64,000 nt of DNA from Mucilaginibacter mallensis (GTDB taxonomy: Bacteria; Bacteroidota; Bacteroidia; Sphingobacteriales; Sphingobacteriaceae), in the NCBI RefSeq assembly GCF_900105165.1, contig NZ_LT629740.1, forward strand, positions 310,001 through 374,000, given 5' to 3'. Below the pieces are notes generated by a model that did no database searches, had not been told where the DNA came from, and saw only the letters and a program-made list of their open reading frames with translations. Both the position numbers and the translations under genes were made by a program. Below are positions 4,011 to 26,701 of the stretch, piece by piece (within the stretch, counting starts at the first letter, position 1; each line of letters begins with the position of its first letter).

Positions 4011-4102
4011 GTCATCCCGAACTTGTTTCGGGATCCCATAAAACAGGATGCACGTTTGCTGGTTACTTAGCATGTGAGGTGCTGAAACAAGTTCAGCATG
4101 AC
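4011..4102. repeat. GTCAT-headed inverted hairpin pair (REPIN-like)
   Basis: The left unit GTCATCCCGAACTTGTTTCG (from 4011) and the right unit, ending in ATGAC at 4102, are inverted copies sharing the core GAACTTGTTTC. Each unit is also a hairpin by itself (CCCGAA/TTCGGG and GCTGAA/TTCAGC around a short loop). The pair lies between the GH3 gene and the epimerase gene. Related pairs are at 14989-15403 and 26590-26701. Confidence 0.7.
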
Positions 4103-10444: not shown

Positions 10445-10514
10445 AAACCGGGCAGATAAGCGCGGATAGATTCTTCGTACCTCAGAATGACAATTTTTTA
10501 TAATAATCAGATCA

Positions 10515-14960: not shown

Positions 14961-14988
14961 CCAATGGCTCAATGCAAATAAAGAGGGA

Positions 14989-15403
14989 GGGTCATGCTGA
15001 GGTACTCGAAGCATAAGCGTAAAGGCCCTCAACGCCATGCTCTACGTTTGCTTTTTTCTAACGGATAGTTCAGGTAGCAAATGCCAATCTCTATTTATTA
15101 AAGCCTCTTTCTTAGTCCTATTCCAACCTTTAATCTGTTTTTCAAAAGCAATTGCCTGGGCAGGATCCGGAAACCGCTCATGAAATACAAGCTTTACCGG
15201 CCTCCTTTTGCTGGTATATGAACTGGGGCTAATTCCATTATCGTGTTCATACAAACGCCTTTCCAAATCATTGGTGATACCGGTATAATATGAATTATCA
15301 CTGCATAAGAGTATATATACGAAGTATTGGTTCATTTATAGTTCTTCCTTTAATATGATACGTAGGCCTTTGCCCTTATGCTTCGAGTGCCTCAGCATGA
15401 CCC
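14989..15403. mobile_element. Candidate mobile element: GIY-YIG gene enclosed by GTCAT-headed inverted repeats
   Basis: The arms at 14989-15027 and 15365-15403 are each 39 bases and match inverted at 36 positions. They begin GGGTCATGCTGAGG and contain ACTCGAAGCAT; each arm can fold by itself (ATGCT with AGCAT). Between them lies a single ORF, the GIY-YIG gene (15042-15335), with 14 and 29 bases to the arms. The whole unit is 415 bp and sits between two convergent genes. Related GTCAT-headed pairs without an ORF occur at 4011-4102 and 26590-26701. That it moves as a unit is an inference. Confidence 0.55.
15042..15335 (-). CDS. Small stand-alone GIY-YIG nuclease-family protein
   Basis: 97 residues, the usual length of stand-alone GIY-YIG domains. 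FVYILLC (5-11) and YYTGITND (16-23) correspond to the GIY and YIG elements. R26 and R27 in DLERRLYEH, H31 in the same stretch and E65 in AIAFEKQIKGW fit the catalytic Arg, His and metal-binding Glu. AAGGAAG lies 8 bases before the ATG at 15335. The fold cuts DNA in UvrC and homing nucleases; activity here is unproven. The gene is completely enclosed by inverted repeats, which sets it apart from a normal chromosomal gene. Confidence 0.85.
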   Translation of the reverse strand: MNQYFVYILLCSDNSYYTGITNDLERRLYEHDNGISPSSYTSKRRPVKLVFHERFPDPAQAIAFEKQIKGWNRTKKEALINRDWHLLPELSVRKKQT

Positions 15404-15423
15404 TACGCACAAATCATTTAACT

Positions 15424-26589: not shown

Positions 26590-26701
26590 GTCATTGCGAG
26601 GAACGAAGCAATCGCTATGCTATACAGAGCAAAAAGAAAGATCGTAACCTTGCAAAAATCTGACCTGCTACTGTAGAGATTACTTCGTTCCTCGAAATGA
26701 T
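26590..26701. repeat. GTCAT-headed inverted hairpin pair between nuoA and nuoB
   Basis: GTCATTGCGAGGAACGAAGC (from 26590) and its inverse at 26678-26701 match at 21 of 24 positions. Each unit also folds alone (ATTGC with GCAAT). There is no ORF between them. It lies inside the complex I locus, with a new promoter box for nuoB after it. The rest of the nuoA-nuoB gap is featureless AT-rich sequence. Confidence 0.75.

Follow-up and report, generated by a model that had tools for sequence, protein, structure and literature searches.

One of the closest known systems to the one analysed here pairs RAYT proteins, which are HUH tyrosine transposases, with short palindromic REP sequences that carry a GTAG head. 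In the passages of these papers that were covered, RAYT genes are single-copy and each has a different REPIN group beside it (PMC3116915), and the enzyme TnpAREP cuts GTAG REPs (PMC8266576). A second class of REPs carries the tag CGTC, often varied to TGTC or CCTC. According to the sections of the survey by Di Nocera et al. (2013; PMC3733652) considered here, their stems almost always start with AT pairs and span 8-9 bp around a loop of 4-5 nt, they lie between genes mostly as head-to-head dimers, and they occur in five phyla including Bacteroidetes, with Neisseria among the hosts. The same sections report no transposase genes associated with CGTC REPs, which seem to lack a dedicated transposase. 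In Neisseria, the dRS3 repeat is described as a phage integration site and is present in 646-725 copies in each of seven tabulated meningococcal genomes, and the passages covered name no partner gene for it (PMC3898611).

GTCA-headed palindromes are abundant intergenic repeats for which the survey, as far as it was covered, leaves the mobiliser open (PMC3733652). Here we describe small GIY-YIG nuclease genes that are wrapped, type by type, in their own GTCA repeats, an arrangement that opens the mobiliser question to direct tests on a protein only about 100 residues long. Among the open-licence PMC matches listed, none reported a link between GIY-YIG proteins and REPs or REPINs; a preprint or subscription paper may exist. 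In term searches of two further papers, CGTC repeats occurred in the reference lists only and GIY-YIG was absent (PMC12306157, PMC6006769).

A small GIY-YIG gene within a split REPIN

The window analysed is a stretch of 64,000 nucleotides from the complete 6.01-Mb genome of Mucilaginibacter mallensis (C1:310001-374000). It contains a cassette consisting of one small gene and two inverted arms (Table 1), located in the gap between a LytTR response-regulator gene and an acyltransferase gene, both judged by eye from their translations. A reading of the sequence alone had described 39-base arms matching inverted at 36 positions, each carrying GTCAT within GGGTCAT and folding by itself. The match of 36/39 is reproduced and extends to 37 of 40 positions (93% complementary) when the arms are taken as 40 nt. 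The gene flanks have an inverted-repeat score of 34, and none of 1000 Markov shuffles scored higher than 19. Both arms do read GGGTCAT; their tag is GTCA, preceded by G (GGTC), and not the GTAG of RAYT-linked REPs. Folding of the isolated 40-nt arms is weak, at -3.2 and -5.5 kcal/mol with DNA parameters.

A gene-less REPIN of the same family, reading GTCATGCTGAGGCACTCGAAGCATAAGCGTAAAGGCCTTT..., is found at C1:186988 and has the same arm as the cassette. Both cassette arms run up to the REPIN centre AAAGGCC that they share and then diverge. Each arm is half of a REPIN, and the gene sits inside a split head-to-head pair. A search of Rfam at this locus yielded two matches, both below the gathering score.

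The encoded protein has PF01541 (GIY-YIG; cut-off 22.6 bits) as its sole Pfam match, Y1_Tnp, the HUH tyrosine transposase family, not being among the matches, and the NCBIfam search returned no family for it. Across 33 aligned proteins, Y7, Y17, G19 and E65 are invariant and R27 is present in at least 90%; we take these five to be the GIY-YIG active-site positions.

Table 1. Cassette components and other GTCA-headed repeats located in the window
Feature	Position in window	Strand	Basis
Small GIY-YIG nuclease gene, 97 aa	15042..15335	-	PF01541, 69.9 bits; AlphaFold2 model
Left arm, half of type-1 REPIN, GTCATGCTGAGGTACTCGAAGCATAAGCGTAAAGGCC, 3' side of gene	14988..15027	+	Inverted repeat
Right arm, other REPIN half, GTCATGCTGAGGCACTCGAAGCATAAGGGCAAAGGCC on minus strand, 5' side of gene	15365..15404	-	Inverted repeat
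REP hairpin core, type 1, left arm	14991..15013	+	Motif GTCA-X4-GA-N(6-26)-revcomp(X4)
REP hairpin core, type 1, right arm	15379..15401	-	Motif GTCA-X4-GA-N(6-26)-revcomp(X4)
Gene-less REPIN, type 2, same superfamily, separate from cassette	4011..4102	.	Hairpin motif (genome 314011-314102)
Single REP (GTCATTCTGAGGTACGAAGAA)	10471..10491	-	Hairpin motif (genome 320471-320491)
Single REP, type 3 (GTCATTGCGAGGAACGAAGCAA)	26590..26611	+	Hairpin motif (genome 336590-336611)

GTCA-headed hairpins as a genome-wide repeat population

The proposal that these arms belong to GTCAT-headed, REPIN-like hairpins is borne out across the genome, where GTCATNCTGA occurs 272 times in 6.01 Mb and the reversed pattern only 6 times. 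The family-independent motif given in Table 1 finds 52 hairpins in 434 kb of this genome and 7 in the reversed sequence. Although ORFs of at least 100 aa cover 86% of those 434 kb, 48 of the 52 hairpins lie outside them. Three loop types recur, to which we give our own labels: type 1 has GAG..TCGA, type 2 has GAACTTGTTTC, and type 3 comprises the remainder, for example GAGGAACGAAG.

As is the case for CGTC REPs, head-to-head dimers predominate. Specifically, a scan of 441 hairpins, which took in some overlapping loci, found neighbours within 120 bp to be head-out 90 times, tail-out 55 times and on the same strand 34 times, and 82 of the 90 head-out pairs are of a single type. The type-1 hairpin was also assessed by covariation, with sites collected without demanding pairing at three free stem positions. 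All three positions are Watson-Crick pairs in 102 of 139 distinct sites, which include 17 different stems, whereas shuffling gives a mean of 11.9 and a maximum of 25 in 1000 trials. The three free positions still pair, and therefore the type-1 hairpin is conserved as a structure.

By these features the GTCA repeats appear largely to fit the CGTC-tagged superfamily as the covered sections of PMC3733652 define it. Like CGTC REPs they are short intergenic palindromes, and at the two ends of 90 REPINs GTCA is preceded by T or C 79 and 81 times. Visual inspection suggests that type 2, like the proteobacterial arms described below, fits a stem of 8-9 bp with an AT start and a loop of 4-5 nt. Type 1 departs from this description: its outer stem is shorter, its loop is longer, and the stem starts with AT in some families only. 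The window arms have GGTC. A further difference is that the survey found no transposase gene associated with its repeats, whereas the repeats described here enclose a GIY-YIG gene.

Enclosure of small GIY-YIG genes by GTCA hairpins

The M. mallensis genome has seven PF01541 matches. Four of these, ORFs of 96-98 aa, lie between inverted GTCA hairpins that belong to a different family in each case, and they make up four of the five GIY-YIG ORFs of at most 200 aa. The fifth (L007, 119 aa) has no GTCA arms and was rejected as a member of the set. Neither of the two long GIY-YIG ORFs (frames of 474 and 613 aa) is enclosed by GTCA hairpins. In the 434 kb of this genome scanned, only one pair of inward hairpins lies 200-1500 bp apart, and it encloses the window gene. 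In 400 kb of a related genome (G016), one such pair encloses another ORF.

A set of 138 small GIY-YIG genes was gathered by protein similarity only, leaving out three ORFs longer than 200 aa (L091, L092, L101). Inward hairpins are present within 250 bp on both sides of 48 genes and on one side of 40; in the rest, hairpins have another orientation (12), no motif is seen (36) or the contig ends (2). Among 346 other genes of the same loci, hairpins lie on both sides of one, on one side of 16 and in another orientation at 10, and 319 have none. The difference in two-sided enclosure (Fisher p = 3e-28) is stated optimistically because the counted genes are related, not independent. These counts uphold the suggestion that a GIY-YIG gene takes the place between the units that a RAYT gene would occupy, and we regard the association of small GIY-YIG genes with GTCA hairpins as firm.

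A phylum-wide search matched 129 of 198 genomes and provided 30 loci. The 29 read (own gene included; L283 was left out as the same gene as L022) have hairpins on both sides in 10 cases, on one side in 11, pointing outward in 1 and none in 7, a sample that is weak taken alone because 2 of its 14 control genes also have hairpins on both sides. A class sample around a Peribacteria genome matched 46 of 60 genomes, and its 25 genes in 30 loci have hairpins on both sides twice, on one side four times and on neither side 19 times, compared with none of 16 controls enclosed. Three loci scored as lacking the motif (L319, L321, L312) adjoin palindromes of another GTCAT class, such as GTCATCCCCGCGAAGGCGGGGATCC at L319, and all strict-motif counts are lower bounds for this reason.

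Could the genes simply have landed where landing is tolerated? Gaps rich in REPs might accept insertions of any kind, with small GIY-YIG genes present there by chance, and such a picture agrees with the concentration of REPs outside ORFs (48/52), with the different REPs that different species carry in the gap after the LytTR gene, and with the 2 of 14 enclosed controls of the phylum sample. Against it stand the control genes flanked on each side by 80 bp or more of DNA free of ORFs, none of 80 being enclosed and seven having a hairpin on one side, and the way in which the repeat type tracks the GIY-YIG lineage, even between paralogues of one genome. We therefore consider chance residence highly improbable, and permissive gaps as the only cause were rejected on the 0/80 result.

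Repeat type and gene lineage

On a tree of the 138 proteins, whose 107 columns leave many forks unsure, the repeat type changes only 4 times over 84 typed rows, whereas 200 shuffles need at least 20 changes, with a mean of 23.8. The shuffle did not include rows lacking a typed hairpin or six rows whose two sides differ in type. Type 2 was observed in just one clade of seven (L004, L011, L015, L017, L026, L033 and L135; support 100/97), and genomes with several paralogues (G000, G012, G018, G044) have different types beside paralogues of different clades. In this respect the system resembles the RAYT and TnpAREP systems as presented in the parts of PMC3116915 and PMC8266576 covered, in which a distinct gene adjoins its own repeats in each repeat family. 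The two differ in their components, RAYT being an HUH tyrosine transposase that goes with GTAG and the protein here a GIY-YIG nuclease that goes with GTCA.

Abundance of type-1 repeats was compared with the presence of a clade-I gene among 61 genomes of the family. Taking at least 105 bits to the window protein as defining a clade-I gene and at least 16 type-1 sites as abundant, all seven genomes with a clade-I gene have abundant sites (16-150), as do 6 of the 54 without one (p = 4e-6, optimistic, since both cut-offs were set with the data already in view). The strongest exception among those six is G016, which has 242 type-1 sites but lacks both a small GIY-YIG gene and any Y1_Tnp match. In the 400 kb of this genome that were read there are 18 type-1 sites, 16 of which pair up head-out into eight units of about 72-76 bp. 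The other five have 31-66 sites.

The tree also holds one clade of 25 genes, 24 of which have no motif (support 99/98), while the motif is widespread elsewhere. The expectation that GIY-YIG homologues are flanked by inverted repeats consequently stands for two large clades and fails for this one and for L007, and the statement that all small GIY-YIG genes are associated with repeats was rejected, given that the clade of 25 includes tandem copies lacking them. G016 and this clade set limits on the pairing of gene and repeat. The tandem copies, about 350-450 bp apart, number four at L133:9582-10961, two at L136:9546-10276 and two at L009:1474-2099, all in the clade without GTCA hairpins.

No GTCA hairpins at the Y1 loci read

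Another candidate explanation has the GTCA repeats moved by RAYT-type Y1 transposases, in the same manner as GTAG REPs. The M. mallensis genome does contain four Y1_Tnp matches, and intact ORFs, 181-196 aa long, underlie three of these. No GTCA hairpin lies within 350 bp of any of the 12 Y1 loci read (four from this genome and eight from the family). The three intact ORFs have inverted repeats of another kind, with scores of 40, 24 and 60, and two genomes with many type-1 sites, G046 (74) and G016, lack a Y1_Tnp match. CGTC repeats are likewise not associated with such genes according to the covered sections of PMC3733652. A Y1 mover is accordingly the least probable of the explanations considered, and RAYT was rejected in this role on the 0/12 count.

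The three intact Y1 genes (L138, L139 and L140, at C1:535158, 196985 and 3507767) are RAYT-like, and each lies between its own inverted repeats, those of L138 containing GTAG palindromes. Thus, two repeat-and-enzyme systems seem to coexist in one genome.

Occupancy of the locus and selection on the gene

The sequence-only reading had proposed a comparison with strains whose site is empty. DNA of the LytTR gene was matched in 61 of 61 genomes of the genus, and 30 loci were read. Both cassette neighbours are present at 15 of these, the window's own included, and the cassette is absent from the other 14. The same gap carries a gene-less type-3 REPIN in the closest relative (L142), with 98% and 94% identity in the neighbour proteins; one lone type-1 REP at L143; and, at L153, a different, frame-broken GIY-YIG gene in the opposite orientation with type-3 arms. 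At the other 11 two-neighbour loci no GIY-YIG gene is in the gap. Exact insertion junctions could not be read against the closest relative, G087, where the gap has another REPIN and the intergenic DNA is too diverged.

A second site, that of L003, was matched in 57 of 61 genomes. Among 30 loci read, the gene was found in M. mallensis and in G087, where the orthologue (L254) has one in-frame stop and has kept its arms, and not in the remaining 28. One of these (L258) has a gene-less type-3 REPIN at the site.

Vertical descent, which the sequence-only reading had named as a refuting outcome, is borne out in part. The cassette is missing from 14 of 15 loci, yet 38 of 39 pairs of motif-bearing genes with at least 85% identity have a common neighbour. 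This proportion is 35/89 at 75-85% identity, 11/684 at 65-75% and 12/1301 at 55-65%. In nine syntenic pairs dN/dS is 0.01-0.22, and for a tenth dS could not be computed; a comparison of the L003 gene with its stop-bearing G087 orthologue likewise gave no value. The gene is under purifying selection and is often inherited vertically. The synteny of close pairs and the low dN/dS therefore portray a maintained resident that probably relocates only rarely, while the repeats are many. So the gene resembles an in-trans RAYT more than a hopping element, in keeping with the repeat populations served in trans and the largely vertical genes of the RAYT and TnpAREP systems (PMC3116915 and PMC8266576, in the passages covered).

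The enclosed genes of M. mallensis all differ in sequence, which speaks against self-copying to many places, and 90 REPINs show no excess of target-site duplications of at least 3 bp when their ends are assumed to be at the GTCA head. On both counts the system differs from IS elements or MITEs with terminal inverted repeats. Near-identical GIY-YIG copies lie close together in a few other genomes. A recent local duplication is seen at L051:2983-4265, where 980 bp separate two GIY-YIG genes that are identical and have the same flanking hairpins.

GIY-YIG proteins include known homing nucleases, and GIY-YIG nucleases reside within mobile DNA both in homing genes and in Penelope-like elements. A free-standing selfish GIY-YIG gene could therefore cut REPINs and copy itself into them, with the REPINs spreading by other means. 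The position of the gene agrees with such a scheme, given that, of the 49 genes with two-sided hairpins (when 20 bp of the gene 3' end is counted in), 30 lie within one open REPIN, that the window arms share the REPIN centre, and that a gene-less type-3 REPIN occupies the L003 site at L258. In the remaining 19 of the 49, a complete REPIN flanks the gene on at least one side. Furthermore, homing genes do not usually show such strong purifying selection or stay so long in syntenic positions, and the REPINs would be left without a mover. The system also differs from homing genes and Penelope-like elements in that no intron or reverse transcriptase was seen and the partner is a population of short palindromes. 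We judge homing to be unlikely, although it is a serious rival.

A possible role in spreading the repeats

The AlphaFold2 model of the window protein (pLDDT 85.4, pTM 0.75) is closest to the solved UPF0213 folds 1zg2 and 1ywl and then to Slx1-Slx4, with a weaker match to the UvrC GIY-YIG domain. A sequence-profile search again places 1zg2 and 1ywl first and gives a weak match to Slx1. The UPF0213/URI proteins YhbQ and YazA are thus relatives of the window protein in fold and in sequence, and E. coli YhbQ is annotated as a DNA damage response nuclease. According to the passages of PMC7017083 covered, Slx1 is the founding member of the family to which UPF0213/URI proteins belong.

We consider it very probable that the GIY-YIG protein acts on the repeats. 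That it likely mobilises them is a further step, and the specific proposal that it is a dedicated nuclease recognising GTCA palindromes and spreading them in trans is one that we favour with some reserve. We hypothesize that the protein binds the GTCA head and the hairpin and cuts at the foot of the hairpin when a repeat pair is single-stranded or cruciform, a substrate proposed in light of the resemblance of the predicted fold to Slx1, a nuclease of branched DNA. GIY-YIG enzymes act on DNA by hydrolysis, to our knowledge with no covalent strand-transfer intermediate, and because of this the subsequent step, in which a copy of the repeat is placed elsewhere, would fall to host repair and ligation. 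The gene itself would mostly stay in place and only rarely relocate. RAYT transposases are likewise thought to spread GTAG-headed REPs in trans.

The observations that back this proposal, at the level of sequence, are the enclosure, its recurrence, the single repeat type per lineage, the conserved hairpin, the purifying selection and the differences between relatives in the same gap. Also in its favour are the abundance of type-1 repeats in the seven genomes with a clade-I gene, the arm shared by the cassette and a gene-less REPIN, and the sole inward hairpin pair in 434 kb, which encloses this gene. Counting against spreading are the many repeats of G016, the motif-less genes, the lack of duplication, the synteny of 38/39 close pairs and the 30/49 genes in mid-REPIN. 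Alternatively, a domesticated structure-specific nuclease might resolve or remove cruciforms formed by the repeats and spread nothing. The Slx1/UPF0213 fold, the annotation of YhbQ and the dN/dS values all agree with this second serious rival. It is weakened by E. coli yhbQ, a relative that lacks such flanking arms, and by the fact that maintenance alone explains neither why a gene is wrapped in its own repeat type nor why that type follows the gene lineage; we consider it unlikely, a little more so than homing. Spreading in trans remains the best single reading of the data. If it is true, unrelated nucleases gave rise to REPIN systems on at least two occasions, a role emerges for some of the small GIY-YIG proteins, many of which are unexplained, and DNA has a route of movement that requires neither HUH nor DDE chemistry.

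Armed homologues in other phyla

The restriction to Bacteroidota made in the sequence-only reading was too narrow. Searches of a plasmid collection with tblastn gave 55 and 33 matched records in overlapping sets, some of them mislabelled chromosomes judging by size, and 13 loci, mostly one per genus, were chosen and read. Ten have inverted palindromic arms on both sides: those of Methylobacterium, Planktothrix, Neisseria gonorrhoeae, Spirosoma, Rhizobium, Aeromonas caviae, Novosphingobium, Azospirillum, S. meliloti and Sphingobium. The other three (two from Sphingomonas and one from Photobacterium) have no arms. The arms read CCTCATCC in Methylobacterium, with heads toward the gene, and CGTCGCCCC in Novosphingobium, both defined by inverted-repeat alignment and eye only, and in Aurantimonas (L115, L184) they have a CCCTCATCC head. 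The gonococcal homologue, whose longest open frame is 71 aa and starts inside the domain, is flanked by GTCATTCCC palindromes that contain the dRS3 sequence ATTCCC(N8)GGGAAT, a likeness to the Neisseria dRS3/NIME arrays (PMC3898611, in the passages covered).

A broader and more tentative reading, to which we give slightly less than even weight, is that GIY-YIG proteins are the missing mobilising enzymes of the whole CGTC/GTCA palindrome superfamily, which would amount to a second, independent REPIN world. The superfamily so conceived would unite the Bacteroidota repeats, the alpha-proteobacterial GTCATCCC..GGGAT palindromes, Neisseria dRS3, and the cyanobacterial and Patescibacteria forms. A hydrolytic, structure-specific nuclease would then stand where an HUH transposase stands in the RAYT systems, constituting a new kind of DNA mobility chemistry.

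Finally, some genomes are rich in proteins of this kind. Three Peribacteria genomes (G122, G123, G124) of 1.2-1.6 Mb have 9-14 PF01541 matches each, UvrC-like ones included, and a 3.0-Mb genome of the window's class (G176) has 23 matches to the small GIY-YIG profile.
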